Shown here: piece after piece, positions 1,376 through 12,570 of the stretch | Numbering within the stretch: the stretch's first letter is position 1 | How the letters are laid out: every line of letters starts with the position of its first letter | Source of the DNA: Nodosilinea sp. LEGE 07298 | Lineage (GTDB): Bacteria; Cyanobacteriota; Cyanobacteriia; Phormidesmidales; Phormidesmidaceae | DNA: 60,194 nucleotides | NCBI RefSeq assembly: GCF_015207265.1 | Contig: NZ_JADEXE010000005.1 | Span: forward strand, 1 to 60,194 | Direction: 5' to 3' | The notes under the pieces: generated by a model | The model's input: only the letters and a program-made list of their open reading frames with translations | What the model was told of the DNA's origin: nothing | The model's database searches: none | Program-made: the position numbers and the translations under genes

Positions 1376-1921
1376 CTATTTCCCCTGGGGAGCCGTTGTC
1401 GACTCCACCACCGAAAACATCAGATCGCCCTCGCAGACTAGCTGGCCATCGACTTCGGCTCGACCGTGCATTTTGCCAAACCGCAGCCGCTTCATGGCCA
1501 ACAGTTCGACCGTCATTACGAGCTGATCACCGGGCACCACCGGGCGGCGAAACCGTACCTTGTCGATGCCAGCAAATACGCACAACCCCTCAACCCCCGG
1601 CACCTGCATCAGCACAATGCCGCCAACTTGGGCCATCGCTTCAACGATGAGCACCCCCGGCATAATCGGATGGCCGGGGAAATGCCCCTGAAAGTGAGGC
1701 TCGTTGAAGGTGACATTTTTGATCCCAACAGCCTGCTTACCCGGTACATAGTCAATAATGCGATCGACCAGGGCAAAGGGATAGCGATGGGGTAGCAGAG
1801 CATAAATTTCTTCGGCACTATAGCAAGTCTTGACAGAATTCGCCGCAGTATTGTCCGCTGGGGTAGTGTCGATCGGGTCTAGGGTGGTGGTCACAGGGTT
1901 TGATGCAGTTACGTCAATCAC
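1376..1921 (-). CDS. fabZ: 3-hydroxyacyl-ACP dehydratase FabZ
   Basis: FabZ dehydrates 3-hydroxyacyl-ACP in fatty acid elongation. The product is 181 residues against about 150 in the family. The extra residues form a Thr/Ala-rich N-terminus of about 35 residues, so the true start may be internal. The hotdog-fold motifs are clear: [13 protein letters not shown] near residue 43, and [20 protein letters not shown] near 78-97, which contains the catalytic His (FPGHP) and Glu (VEAMAQ). It sits between lpxC and lpxA, the common arrangement that couples fatty-acid and lipid A precursor supply at the beta-hydroxyacyl-ACP branch. Confidence 0.93.
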
Positions 1922-1977
1922 AATCGATGGGTTAGAACAGCAGATGAGATAGGACTTTGCCTAGCTTGATTTTGCCA

Positions 1978-2910
1978 CTAGTGGGGACTCTCGCTATAGA
2001 CCAAGGCCGGTACCAGGGCCGCCGCCAGCTCGCCGTGGAGCCGATGGCTAGCCTTATAGGCCACGATGTGGGCGACAGGTAAACTGCCTAGCAGACTTAA
2101 ATCACCAATTAAGTCGAGCATTTTGTGGCGGGCGGGCTCGTCGTCAAACCGTAGGGGCGGGTTGAGCCAGCCCTCATCACCACACACCAGCGCATTATCT
2201 AAGCTACCGCCCTGAATCAGACCGCTGGCCCGCAGCTGATCAACCTGATGGGCTAAACCAAAGGTGCGGGCCGGGGCCACAGCGGTGGCGAACCCCTCAA
2301 GGCCAAAGGGGTCAGCCTGGTAGGCCCAGCTAAACCACTGGTTGCCGATCGCAGCTACCTCAAAGTCAATGCCATAGGTAAACCGCAGGGCAGGGGCTGG
2401 GAAAGCCGCAACAAAGGCATCGCCGTGGGCAACAGTTACAGGCCGATCAAGGCGGGCTACAGGCCGAAGCTCTGCTTGTATTTGCCGCCCAGCCTGCCGC
2501 AAAGCATCAACCCAACCTAGGGCAGACCCGTCGAGTAGAGGCACTTCTGGCCCAGCAATCTCAATGCGGATGTTATCAATACCAAGACCGACCAAAGCCG
2601 CCAGCAGATGCTCAACCGTACGCACCGCCGCTTCTCCCTGGCGCAGTTCGGTGGAAAGCATGGTGGGGTTCACCGCCTCCAGGCTGGCGGACACAGTGGG
2701 CTGCCCTGGCAGGTCAGTACGCACAAAGAAGCGCCCCTGACCGGGTTCAGCTGGATGCAGGGTGACGGTGGTAGTAGCCCCAGAATGCAGCCCTATGCCC
2801 TGGCGCTCTACAGTGTGCGCCAGGGTGGTTTGGGCCTGAGTGTAGCCCCAGCTGCCGTGGGATGCTGCCCAGCTCCCAGGACTGGTTTGGGCGGTACTGG
2901 TCTGAGCCAT
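1978..2910 (-). CDS. lpxC: UDP-3-O-acyl-N-acetylglucosamine deacetylase LpxC
   Basis: LpxC is the zinc amidase that commits UDP-acyl-GlcNAc to lipid A synthesis. The frame is 310 residues. It shows the family start TLAHTVERQGIGLHSG, the first zinc-ligand segment VEHLLAALVGLGIDN, and the C-terminal motif RHKMLDLIGDL with the other zinc His and Asp. The first 30 residues are low-complexity (Ser/Thr/Gln) and may not be part of the fold. Its ATG overlaps the TAA stop of bamA by one base (TAATG), so translational coupling to the outer-membrane assembly gene is likely. Confidence 0.94.
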   Translation of the reverse strand: MAQTSTAQTSPGSWAASHGSWGYTQAQTTLAHTVERQGIGLHSGATTTVTLHPAEPGQGRFFVRTDLPGQPTVSASLEAVNPTMLSTELRQGEAAVRTVEHLLAALVGLGIDNIRIEIAGPEVPLLDGSALGWVDALRQAGRQIQAELRPVARLDRPVTVAHGDAFVAAFPAPALRFTYGIDFEVAAIGNQWFSWAYQADPFGLEGFATAVAPARTFGLAHQVDQLRASGLIQGGSLDNALVCGDEGWLNPPLRFDDEPARHKMLDLIGDLSLLGSLPVAHIVAYKASHRLHGELAAALVPALVYSESPH

Positions 2911-8439: not shown

Positions 8440-8870
8440 ACATTTGTGGAAACTGAGAACAACAGAAGCACCAATCTGTCTTCGGTAACATGTGTCGTGG
8501 CCCCAAATTCGTCACAATGGACGGTGGTAGTACGATTTATGTCCTGTCAGCCCCGGCCTCTCATAAATGCGTTAGCTTTTCGTAAAGCGTTCAGATTGCA
8601 GGTTTTAGCTGGCGCAAATAACGCCGAATGTGCATCTAAGCCCTTATGGCAATGTCTGTGGTCTGTTTAGCAGTGCTAACCAAGGCTATATGGCATCTTA
8701 ATCTATACCGAGATTAGAAAAATTGCCGCTAGATAGCACCAGGCAGTCACATCGCCCTAGAGGCTGTTGAAGACTCCCCGGCTGGGGCAGAGATTTGCGT
8801 ATCAGTAGAGTCGCGATCGCCCTGATTGCTGCTAACTGCCGCCGCCCCCCGATGGAATTGGAGAAATCAT
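8440..8870. other. Intergenic region, no gene recognised
   Basis: This is about 430 bp between hisG and the MFS gene. A 74-codon frame (8446-8670, plus) overlaps nothing but has no recognisable family and no clear ribosome-binding site. A small CCCC/GGGG hairpin lies near 8776-8787. I see no tRNA or known riboswitch. Confidence 0.5.
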
Positions 8871-10238
8871 TTGACTTCACCGCAGGTAAAGCCGGAATTG
8901 AGCTTTTGGCAACTCTGGAATATGAGTATTGGCTTCTTCGGCATTCAGTTTGGCTGGGGGTTGCAGATGGCCAATACCAGCGCGATCTTCGAACACCTGG
9001 GGGCTGATGCCGATCAAATTCCTATTCTGTGGTTGGCGGCCCCTCTAACGGGGCTAATCGTACAGCCCATCATTGGCAACCTTAGCGATAACACCTGGGG
9101 GGCTTTAGGTCGTCGCCGCCCTTATTTTTTAATTGGGGCCATCTTTGCCTCGCTCGCGCTGGTGTGGATGCCCAATGCTGGCAGCCTTTGGATGGCCGTT
9201 GGCCTGCTCTGGATTTTAGATACGGCGGCCAACATCAGCATGGAACCCTTTCGGGCCTTTGTGAGTGATCTACTCCCGCCCAAGCAGCGCACTAAGGGTT
9301 TCACCATGCAGAGCCTATTTATTGGCTTGGGGGCGGTGCTTGCTTCTGCCCTGCCGTGGTTACTGGCCAACGTCTTTGGCGTGCATGACAGCGTAACCAA
9401 TGGCGTGCCCTTGGTGGTCAAAATTTCTTTTTACACCGGAGCAGCCTTTTTTCTGGGCACTGTCATATGGACCGTGTTCACCACTGAGGAGCGGCCCCCT
9501 CGTGATATGGAGGCCTTTCGAGAGCAGCAGGAAAGGCGTTTGGGCGTAAGTTCTACGGTTAGGGAAATCATTACGGCCTTTCAGCAGATGCCTGCAACCA
9601 TGCGACAGCTGGCTTGGGTACAGGCGTTTAGCTGGTTGGGCATGTACTGCGTCTTTTTGTACTTTCCTCCGGCGGTGGCTCACAACTTATTTGGAGCGAG
9701 CAGTGAGTCTTCGCCGCTCTACAGTCAAGGCATTGAGTGGGCTGGTATCTGCATTGCGGCCTACAACGCAGTTTGTTTTGGGATGTCATTTTTGCTGCCT
9801 CGCTTGGCGGCGGCTACCAGTCGCCCCATTGCCCATGCGCTGTGTCTTACCTGTGGCGGATTAGGACTGATTTCGCTCTGGTTTGTGCCATCGCCCCGGT
9901 GGGCGCTGCTGCCCATGCTGGGTTTGGGGATAGCCTGGTCTAGTCTTTTGTCGTTGCCCTACGCCATGCTGGCTGGGGCGTTGCCTGCTCGTAAAGGCGG
10001 CATTTACATGGGCATTTTCAACATGTTTATCGTGCTGCCTGAGATTATTGTTTCTCTGGGCCTGGGGTGGATTATGGCCCATCTGCTCGACAACAATCGT
10101 TTGCTAGCGGTGGTGCTGGGCGGAGTTTGTTTTTTGATTGCAGTGCCCCTAACGCTGCGGGTAGAAGAGGCAACGCCACAGCCAACTATCACGGCGACGC
10201 TTCAACCCGCTCTGGAATCTGAGGCTATTTCAAAATAA
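8871..10238 (+). CDS. MFS transporter, sugar-carrier (SLC45/GPH-like) type
   Basis: A polytopic membrane carrier with about 12 transmembrane segments, probably moving a sugar. The early segment SIGFFGIQFGWGLQMANTSA, the cytoplasmic loop NLSDNTWGALGRRRPYFLIG (the MFS loop 2-3 signature) and EPFRAFVSDLLPPKQRTKG match the sucrose/SLC45-like branch, which also has cyanobacterial members. I place the start at TTG 8871 because GGAG at 8860-8863 lies 7 bp upstream. A longer TTG start at 8826 is also open. The product is about 455 residues. The substrate cannot be read from sequence. Confidence 0.82.
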   Translation: MTSPQVKPELSFWQLWNMSIGFFGIQFGWGLQMANTSAIFEHLGADADQIPILWLAAPLTGLIVQPIIGNLSDNTWGALGRRRPYFLIGAIFASLALVWMPNAGSLWMAVGLLWILDTAANISMEPFRAFVSDLLPPKQRTKGFTMQSLFIGLGAVLASALPWLLANVFGVHDSVTNGVPLVVKISFYTGAAFFLGTVIWTVFTTEERPPRDMEAFREQQERRLGVSSTVREIITAFQQMPATMRQLAWVQAFSWLGMYCVFLYFPPAVAHNLFGASSESSPLYSQGIEWAGICIAAYNAVCFGMSFLLPRLAAATSRPIAHALCLTCGGLGLISLWFVPSPRWALLPMLGLGIAWSSLLSLPYAMLAGALPARKGGIYMGIFNMFIVLPEIIVSLGLGWIMAHLLDNNRLLAVVLGGVCFLIAVPLTLRVEEATPQPTITATLQPALESEAISK

Positions 10239-10550: not shown

Positions 10551-12050
10551 TTACAGCGATCGCACGCCTGCCAGCACCTCAGCCCGCTGCTGTTCAGCAC
10601 TCACGGGCCTATAGGTAAGCTGCGACACCACCACAAACGCAATCAGCCCCAAGATTGGGCTAATCATTGTCGGGAAGCCGTCAAAATCAATCGTAAACAG
10701 GTCGTTTGGGAAGTACAGCAGGGTATTGTCAACCCCAAACATCGTCGGCATCAGGCTGAAAAATACCAGCCGGGTCAACGACCCTACTGCAATACAGGCC
10801 AGCGCCCCTTGCCGTGTGGCTTTGGGCCAAAACAGGCCGCCAATTAGCGGTACCACCAGGCCCGCAAAGCTCATGTCAAAGGCCAGCAGCAGCAGTACAC
10901 CTGTCTGAGGCACTTTGAGGCCTAAAATAACTCCCAGCACCGTAATTACAATCGCCATCAGGCGAGTGATCAGCAGCAGGCGATCGCCTCCGGTCCCGTG
11001 GGCTGTAGCATGGCGAATGCCCAGCACATTATGGGCCAGCACCGACGAGGTTCCCAAAATCGCGCCATCAGCGGTAGACAGCGACGCCGACAAAATGGCG
11101 GCCAGCACCAGTAGCCCCAGCAGTGGCGGCACTACCCCATCCAGTAGAGCAAACAGCACCGGCCCGTCGGGGGTAATGCCCGCCTGGCTGAGAATGCCGT
11201 TGGCTCCCAGGGCAATAATTGAGAAAGGAATACCAATAATCAACGTGCCAGCCGAGGCAATAAAGCAGGACCGCTGAGCCGTTTCGGGGCTTTCGGCCGC
11301 AAAAATGCGGGCCATGAAGTCGATCGCCACCATATTGCCGAACCCTAGGGCAATAATGCTGGCCCAGTTAATCGCCGCCCCAGAGCTAACCGCCGTCAGT
11401 TGATCAATAGCCCCTGGTCCCATGCCGGGGTCGATGGTGATGCCAAAGTTGGCCACCACAAACAGGAGCAGCCCCCAAGCCCCCACCAACGCAATCATCA
11501 CCTGAATAAAATCGGTGTAGGCCACGGCAAAGAGCCCGCCCGACACCGTGTAAGCAAATACCAGTACCGCCAGCAGGGTAATGCCGCCGACGTAGCTGGT
11601 GCCCAAGAAGTTTTCGAACATGTAGCCCCCGGCTACCAAGTTGCCCGCCAGCAAAAATGAAAAGCTAAGCGTCATAATGCAGGCAGCAATGACTTCCACC
11701 GTGCGGCCATACTTAACTCGATAAAAGTCGGGAATCGTAATTAGCCCCATGCGGTTCATGGGCTTGGCCAAAAACAGCCCTGTTAGCAAAAGACAAAGCG
11801 ACAGTCCAATAGGCAGCGCTGCCCCGGCCCAAAATCCAAAGGCCGACGAGAGATCGGTGTTACCCAGGGTGGCGTTAGAATCGACCGACTGAGCCATTAG
11901 TGTCGCTGCGGCCAATGGCAGCGCCAGACCTCGCCCTGCCACCAAAAAGTTGACGCTATCACCCTTAATTTGTTGAGAGGCCCACACCCCAATGCCCAGC
12001 GTGCCGAGCAAAAAGGCAATGATGCCGTAGGAAAACACACTATGTTCCAT
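10551..12050 (-). CDS. Sodium:solute symporter (SSF family), under a ykkC-type riboswitch
   Basis: A 499-residue membrane protein with about 13 hydrophobic segments and SSF features: FLVAGRGLALPLAAATLMAQ near residues 34-53, a Ser-rich segment ASLSTADGAILGTSSVLAHN near 325-345, and GLITIPDFYRVKYGR in the loop near 112. The family imports small solutes such as proline, urea, sugars or carboxylates with Na+. The leader (12100-12275) carries a guanidine-I (ykkC) type aptamer and terminator, so I infer the substrate or response involves guanidine or a related guanidinium compound. AGGAG lies 10 bp before the ATG. No guanidine hydrolase or carboxylase gene lies next to it. Confidence 0.88.
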   Translation of the reverse strand: MEHSVFSYGIIAFLLGTLGIGVWASQQIKGDSVNFLVAGRGLALPLAAATLMAQSVDSNATLGNTDLSSAFGFWAGAALPIGLSLCLLLTGLFLAKPMNRMGLITIPDFYRVKYGRTVEVIAACIMTLSFSFLLAGNLVAGGYMFENFLGTSYVGGITLLAVLVFAYTVSGGLFAVAYTDFIQVMIALVGAWGLLLFVVANFGITIDPGMGPGAIDQLTAVSSGAAINWASIIALGFGNMVAIDFMARIFAAESPETAQRSCFIASAGTLIIGIPFSIIALGANGILSQAGITPDGPVLFALLDGVVPPLLGLLVLAAILSASLSTADGAILGTSSVLAHNVLGIRHATAHGTGGDRLLLITRLMAIVITVLGVILGLKVPQTGVLLLLAFDMSFAGLVVPLIGGLFWPKATRQGALACIAVGSLTRLVFFSLMPTMFGVDNTLLYFPNDLFTIDFDGFPTMISPILGLIAFVVVSQLTYRPVSAEQQRAEVLAGVRSL

Positions 12051-12099
12051 ACCATCTAAGCTCCTGACCTATGTTTATGGCTATCGAGCGGCAGATACT

Positions 12100-12156
12100 A
12101 AAAAACCCAGGAGCAAAACGTCAGTTCCTGTAGAACTGCGCTATTCCTCCCGGGCT
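12100..12156 (-). terminator. Riboswitch expression platform: intrinsic terminator
   Basis: On the minus strand CCCGGGAG (from the conserved 3' part of the aptamer) can pair with CTCCTGGG, which is followed by six T (12105-12100). The aptamer's AAGCCCGGGAG segment is therefore shared between aptamer and terminator. Ligand binding should block the terminator, giving an ON switch. A small CAGTTC/GAACTG hairpin lies in the loop at 12122-12138. Confidence 0.75.
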
Positions 12157-12275
12157 TTTATCCCTCCGTGAACCAGGCAGAAGCAAGTCATGCACAACCC
12201 GGCGGCACCTCTCGGACCAGTCACTTAGCAAGCCAAAATTGGGGAATCTTGCTTGCCCAGCCGGAACCCTAGATG
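12144..12275 (-). ncRNA. ykkC-type (guanidine-I) riboswitch aptamer
   Basis: Read on the minus strand, three ykkC consensus blocks appear in the right order: CTAGGGTTCCGG (12272-12261), GACTGGTCCGAGAG (12222-12209) and CACGGAGGGATAAAAGCCCG (about 12171-12152), continuing GGAGG. These are the signature segments of the ykkC class, whose main subtype senses free guanidine. Other ykkC subtypes bind ppGpp, PRPP or nucleotides. I judge this copy closest to the guanidine subtype but cannot prove it without a covariance model. It lies in the leader of the SSF symporter, about 95 nt before its ATG. Confidence 0.88.
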
Positions 12276-12570
12276 CTCTACTCTCAAGTTTTTTAGAAGC
12301 AACAAATACCCCGATATTGCAGTGACCTATTGTGTACACCGCAAACGATTGAGGGAGTTTATGCGTGAACCGAATTGATTAGTTTGTATCAACTAGCCAC
12401 GGGCAGGTAAGTAGCCATTACTACGGTTGCGCTAGCAGTATGTCAGCGTTTCATTATTTTTAAGTCAGTTGGGAGGACATAAGCGGATCTGGCTGAGCGG
12501 GCGATCGCATCTCTGTTCCCTCTACTCCATAGACCGATAGGATATAAGGCGTTGTGTTAAATCTGCCCCC

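Follow-up and report, generated by a model that had tools for sequence, protein, structure and literature searches.

Our study of a 60,194-nt stretch of the Nodosilinea sp. LEGE 07298 genome (positions 1 to 60,194 of contig NZ_JADEXE010000005.1; this whole stretch is referred to as the window) indicates that a sodium:solute symporter (SSF) encoded on its minus strand is probably a guanidinium importer under the control of both guanidine and nitrogen. The switch that precedes the gene belongs to an established class; the novelty lies in the gene that it targets and in the family of carriers to which this points. The guanidine-I class of the switch, its ON-type platform and its SSF target are supported as sequence features, and comparative evidence (gdmH linkage, co-occurrence and distant homologues) lends independent support to a tie between the SSF protein and guanidinase.

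A preliminary description of this DNA had assigned the leader to the guanidine-I/ykkC class and proposed an Rfam covariance scan, which bore the assignment out. The match to RF00442, at 12145–12283 on the minus strand (69.9 bits against a cut-off of 63, E 2.1e-10), covered all 107 model positions, and RF00442 was the only family above its threshold in a scan of the whole 60-kb window. The three ykkC blocks were found on the minus strand in the order claimed (12272–12261, 12222–12209 and 12164–12147), each once in the window. The feature placed at 12100–12275 was thus real, but the aptamer starts 8 nt beyond that range, at 12283. As had also been read, CCCGGGAG (12154–12147) pairs with CTCCTGGG (12113–12106), followed by six T (12105–12100), to form an intrinsic terminator that overlaps the 3' strand of the aptamer (12100–12155, minus strand; −31.0 kcal/mol) and was equalled in stability by none of 200 shuffles (z −6.0). 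The ON-type platform holds as a sequence feature. By a rule less strict on the T run than its first version, a terminator on the aptamer strand was present in 18/22 SSF leaders, 7/9 gdmH leaders of the same loci and 34/37 other gdmH-region leaders. In an alignment of 19 SSF leaders, 14 of 25 pairs had changed on both sides (shuffles 7.0 ± 1.6, 0/500 as high), although the model to which they were fitted had been made in part from these leaders. A chance match as the source of the aptamer signal was rejected or ranked low.

The choice of an SSF symporter as the switch target was also upheld. Its ORF (10551–12050, minus strand) lies after the aptamer and terminator, starting about 50 nt past the T run. 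This gene encodes a 499-aa SLC5-type protein (PF00474, 118.4 bits), a candidate Na+/guanidinium importer, and is preceded by a Shine–Dalgarno-like AGGAG (12061–12065, minus strand). No second co-directional gene of at least 80 aa follows it before the convergent gene at 8826–10238 (plus strand), which encodes an MFS carrier similar to sucrose/H+ symporters (TIGR01301, with a score under the cut-off). The SSF gene is thus the sole target at this locus, but not in the genome, where a second guanidine-I switch (80.5 bits, contig C302) precedes gdmH. The C302 operon consists of this switch, an arginase-family gene (gdmH), a ghaA-like gene, two small ORFs and a ghaB-like ORF; the small ORFs encode 106 and 130 aa and occupy 1622–2338 (minus strand) of locus L078 (G000:C302), with ghaA on one side and ghaB on the other. 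Against the PDB, the GdmH of this genome matched 7esr/7oi1 at E 2e-248 and 9fek at 6.7e-176, which we take to be the Synechocystis and Nitrospira guanidinases, with the next solved ureohydrolases at 1.3e-47 or weaker. Urease alpha is also present. In this draft genome of 617 contigs, a search for the ABC binding protein that gdmH operons encode gave nothing at E 1e-60 and, taken with the switch survey, this leaves the SSF protein as the only guanidine-switched transporter found in the draft. Counting against a simple scheme, the genome's own gdmH leader contains no GTA-N8-TAC box within 250 nt and no terminator by the rule applied to all leaders. A match to the nitrogen-stress RNA NsiR1 (L001, 2689–2745, plus strand; 47.5 bits, cut-off 39) lies approximately 1 kb from the gdmH switch.

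Upstream of the SSF aptamer, an NtcA-type box, GTAGTAATGGCTAC (12411–12424, minus strand), is conserved among SSF leaders. NtcA recognizes the consensus GTA-N8-TAC, which in activated promoters stands about 22 nt before a −10 element of the form TA-N3-T. A possible −10 element, TACAAA (12383–12388, minus strand), an imperfect match with TG one base before it, lies 22 nt past the box, and no sigma-70 promoter was recognized here when the region was scanned for the consensus. The box was seen in 17/22 SSF leaders, no more than 250 nt 5' of the aptamer (dinucleotide shuffles: mean 0.87, maximum 4), with a TA element 20–24 nt past it in 15/22. At the same loci it was also present in 5/9 gdmH leaders, and elsewhere in 24/37 leaders around other gdmH genes (loci L109–L148; shuffles: mean 1.04, maximum 3); the repeat-genome loci L035, L037, L041, L042, L054, L056 and L057 were left out of these leader counts. 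The window holds five such boxes against 5.6 expected, which means that a single box is not significant and that the weight of the NtcA reading falls on conservation among leaders that are related. A looser search for near-NtcA boxes, allowing one mismatch and requiring a TA element, found them 5' of 6/11 SSF genes at which no own switch was detected; this rule was ad hoc, had no shuffle control and is given no weight here. Taken together, the boxes suggest a 'nitrogen-starved AND guanidine present' gate for the SSF gene, and their frequency at other gdmH genes indicates that control by nitrogen and guanidine together may be widespread among cyanobacterial gdmH leaders. The Synechocystis gdmH-ABC operon is repressed by ammonium (PMC10094980).

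Among 291 genomes of the cyanobacterial class, the SSF protein (called at E 1e-60) was found in 28, at 65–100 % identity and with one gene partial. Whether homologous symporters in other cyanobacteria carry the same leader, a check proposed in the preliminary description, was answered positively in part: Rfam placed guanidine-I directly 5' of the SSF gene in 12/28 genomes, but in 9/28 (G032, G113, G133, G152, G169, G195, G222, G229 and G235) no switch was detected and the SSF gene is not linked to gdmH, which counts against the guanidine reading. Model R1, whose scores are partly circular on the 13 of these leaders from which it was made, added an SSF switch in G236 (34.6 bits, weak) and, in five operons that hold gdmH and the SSF gene (L063, L065, L066, L067 and L069), a switch 5' of gdmH. 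An Rfam match was also reported in the genomes of those five operons, with its position given for G198 only. At 20 named loci R1 found a switch at the SSF gene in 16, the others being L044 (Prochloron), L045 and the partial L049 and L050; run with filters off on 12 loci without a detected SSF switch, its best match was 12.9 bits. With stretches of up to about 9 kb inspected on each side, gdmH was beside the SSF gene in 8/28 class genomes, either co-directional or divergent, and also, divergent, in Prochloron L044. Where the two share an operon the SSF gene is the last gene, L074 having the order gdmH-ghaB-SSF with no switch detected, and at L059 and L064 gdmH and the SSF gene each have a switch of their own, the two being divergent. 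At L111 (6922–8367, gdmH forward) a 481-aa ORF, by eye of the glutamine synthetase family, lies between ghaA and ghaB.

GdmH, called at E 1e-120 with a few matches partial or containing stops, was present in 119/291 class genomes. It was found in 26/28 genomes with the SSF protein versus 93/263 without (odds ratio 23.8, p 2e-9), there being no match in 2/28, and the ABC binding protein, among the 119 GdmH genomes, in 13/26 with the SSF protein versus 82/93 without (odds ratio 0.13, p 8e-5), although both p values are too small because the genomes share ancestry, and the ABC protein, taken at an arbitrary cut-off of E 1e-60, is a loose marker whose family also occurs in genomes without GdmH. 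Several genomes (G013, G015, G016 and G033 among others) have guanidine-I and the ABC binding protein with no GdmH match, so some guanidine regulons of the class must use other enzymes. In a tree of 36 SSF sequences, 21 own-switch copies and Prochloron fell on one side of a branch with an SH-aLRT of 95, with the six operon copies plus eight further sequences opposite, and gdmH linkage was seen on both sides. Of 20 genomes without an SSF orthologue, only five gave matches at E 1e-6, these being paralogues of 25–31 % identity and two fragments. The relatives G046 (L149) and G162 (L150), which lack the full gene, contain short SSF fragments (63 % and 85 % identity, respectively; one is interrupted by an in-frame stop), which suggests loss of the symporter.

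Homologues were also found beyond the class. A tblastn search against plasmids gave 42 records; among the 15 listed, six (from five species) exceeded 50 % identity and the others were near 27 %. One record per species was opened, that is, five of the six. These SSF homologues, from Rubrobacter, Nonomuraea and haloarchaea, are 51–56 % identical and lie near GdmH-type or arginase-family genes. Rubrobacter indicoceani has the order guanidine-I (75.7 bits), GdmH-type gene, SSF gene, followed by a formamidase gene on the opposite strand and by urease genes; its GdmH-type protein is 60 % identical to that of Nodosilinea and has 9fek (E 1.9e-160) and 7esr (1.6e-150) as its best solved matches. The SSF gene of Nonomuraea gerenzanensis is divergent from a GdmH-type gene (61 %), the alignment ends being 37–58 nt apart. 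Halalkalicoccus jeotgali, Haloarcula sinaiiensis and H. marismortui have an arginase-family gene within about 2 kb of the SSF gene, with one gene between. The haloarchaeal enzyme is only 35–36 % identical to GdmH and, in Halalkalicoccus, matches guanidinase entries (1e-56) slightly better than guanidinobutyrase (1.5e-46), which makes it a guanidinase candidate only. In neither the archaeal nor the Nonomuraea stretches did guanidine-I score as high as the Rfam threshold. Haloarcula also has a gene for an APC family permease (L158, 9335–10765, plus strand) near the SSF and arginase-family genes.

The SSF/SLC5 membership indicated by PF00474 agrees with a LeuT-type SSF fold in the predicted structure, an AlphaFold model of moderate quality (pLDDT 73.4, pTM 0.76) that is weak around TM1. 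The choline transporter CHT1 was the closest solved structure by sequence (E 4e-22, about 22–23 % identity) and ranked first when this model was searched with Foldseek; it also came first in a separate structural comparison (Z 33.5, rmsd 4.3, 469 aligned). The aromatic cage of CHT1 comprises W62, Y67, Y91, W141, W254 and W406 (PMC11589582, PMC13220886). In a hand-read alignment these positions are S55, A60, L83, L133, A242 and L387, the same residues occurring in 36/36 sequences, and with all six non-aromatic a choline carrier was rejected or ranked low. The Na2 Ser/Thr pair on TM8 is S325/T326 in 36/36, aligned to CHT1 S346/S347, and the Na3 acids are kept as D180/D328, D180 being Ser in Rubrobacter. 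Two aspartates, D57 and D244, replace CHT1 Gly64 and Ala256. The former lies in the TM1 joint loop, where CHT1 holds chloride, and the latter two residues past the W254 position. Both are invariant in 36/36 sequences and in 3/3 distant homologues checked, and both are absent at the aligned positions in CHT1 and in two paralogues of about 25 % identity. PutP also has Asp in the D57/D244 region. We hypothesize that Asp57 and Asp244 may form the site for the guanidinium cation.

Other readings of the switch and of its target were weighed against guanidinium import. Most of the conserved nucleotides of the ykkC subtype 2 aptamers are common to guanidine-I (PMC5912903), and the leader might therefore belong to subtype 2, sensing ppGpp, PRPP or another nucleotide, or be a decayed switch. 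This is the least credible of the alternatives, given that RF00442 is above threshold and no competing riboswitch family was found among all Rfam matches to E 10 in 11950–12450. It is also opposed by 13 aligned leaders, gdmH leaders included, in which the ends outside P1 are variable, without the conserved tails of subtypes 2a–2c. In this alignment, composed of these leaders alone, GAGAG is identical in 13/13, and it presumably contains position A46. A46 is a published marker of subtype 1 (PMC6031431). If the switch does respond to guanidine, the symporter could nevertheless import another guanidino compound (methylguanidine, agmatine or guanidino acids), with the switch sensing a breakdown product. 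Guanidine switches control methylguanidine use in halophiles (PMC12508155), and the haloarchaeal enzyme resembles guanidinobutyrase almost as closely as guanidinase. We consider this unlikely, as the partner is GdmH-type in cyanobacteria, Rubrobacter and Nonomuraea, and an unsystematic look noticed no guanidine-releasing enzyme beside the genes.

A carrier of urea, the guanidinase product, is suggested by the SSF-fold relative DUR3, whose best chain scored Z 28.2. This is below CHT1 by fold, no DUR3 chain was found at E 0.001 or better by sequence, and urea arises intracellularly, so its import would need no guanidine switch; transport of urea is very improbable. Equally hard to credit is export of guanidine by a detoxification pump like Gdx, even though numerous guanidine-switch targets export guanidine (PMC12186494), because the SSF protein retains the Na2 residues of Na+ symporters, occupies the operon place of the ABC importer in other species and has NtcA-type boxes at its leaders.

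With guanidinium import as the preferred reading, the locus would be a single-gene guanidine-uptake unit. NtcA, judging from the conserved box, would switch the promoter on under nitrogen scarcity, and the nascent leader would then fold as either the aptamer or the terminator, both of which need the CCCGGGAG strand. As expected from the family, guanidinium would steady the aptamer and allow transcription to continue. The product would be a LeuT-fold, probably Na+-coupled, guanidinium importer, as linkage and co-occurrence imply, in which Asp57 and Asp244 may hold the cation. GdmH, under the second guanidine-I switch, would cleave guanidine to urea and ammonium, with urease completing the pathway, and in the Nodosilinea genome the SSF protein would replace the ABC importer of the Synechocystis operon. 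A wider proposal, that these SSF proteins form a family of Na+-coupled guanidinium importers in Cyanobacteria, Actinobacteria and haloarchaea, with D57/D244 in place of the aromatic cage, a guanidinase/ureohydrolase partner and, in cyanobacteria, an NtcA and guanidine-I AND gate, is one that we hold to be evenly balanced. If true, this would be a third guanidine importer family beside the ABC and APC carriers, the generic annotation 'sodium:solute symporter' would gain meaning, and guanidine use would be predicted in organisms without the ABC importer, perhaps including haloarchaea, which would then assimilate guanidine. D57 and D244 would be named residues for how an SSF protein selects guanidinium, and joint NtcA and riboswitch control would mark a system for nitrogen feeding and not for detoxification alone.

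Published targets of guanidine riboswitches include SMR and MATE exporters, an ABC importer and an APC permease (PMC12186494, PMC11410670, PMC8390497, PMC10119275). The preliminary description, which named carboxylase or hydrolase genes, SMR exporters and ABC importers, had overlooked the APC-family permease under guanidine-I in comammox bacteria (PMC11410670). No SSF symporter tied to guanidine was found in the literature searched, by which we do not claim its absence from print. In the parts of the sources available, the SSF homologue in PMC2211319 is under a thiamine switch and not a guanidine switch, and the symporters mentioned in PMC6429828 and PMC11477304 concern another candidate motif (TIGR03647) and glycine switches, respectively.

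The Nodosilinea leader shares the consensus blocks, fold and terminator-type ON platform of the guanidine-I riboswitch (RF00442, ykkC subtype 1), but differs from typical members in its SSF target and in the NtcA-type box 5' of it. As in Synechocystis sll1077–1082 (gdmH-ghaA-ghaB-ABC importer), guanidine-I presides over a guanidinase and an uptake system, and in five relatives the resemblance to that operon goes further, the SSF gene standing after gdmH and gha genes in operons whose switch was detected. In Nodosilinea itself gdmH and the transporter gene form distinct units, and the carrier is a one-protein SSF rather than an ABC system. The comammox Nitrospira arrangement of guanidine-I, APC permease and guanidinase (PMC11410670) is alike in pairing an ATP-independent carrier with a guanidinase under guanidine-I, although the carrier there belongs to the APC superfamily. 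Among characterized transporters, CHT1/SLC5A7 and the bacterial sfCHT are nearest in solved sequence and fold, and share the Na2 residues and an organic-cation substrate (a candidate one here), whereas the low identity, the loss of the aromatic cage and the aspartates at Gly64 and Ala256 set the Nodosilinea symporter apart from them.
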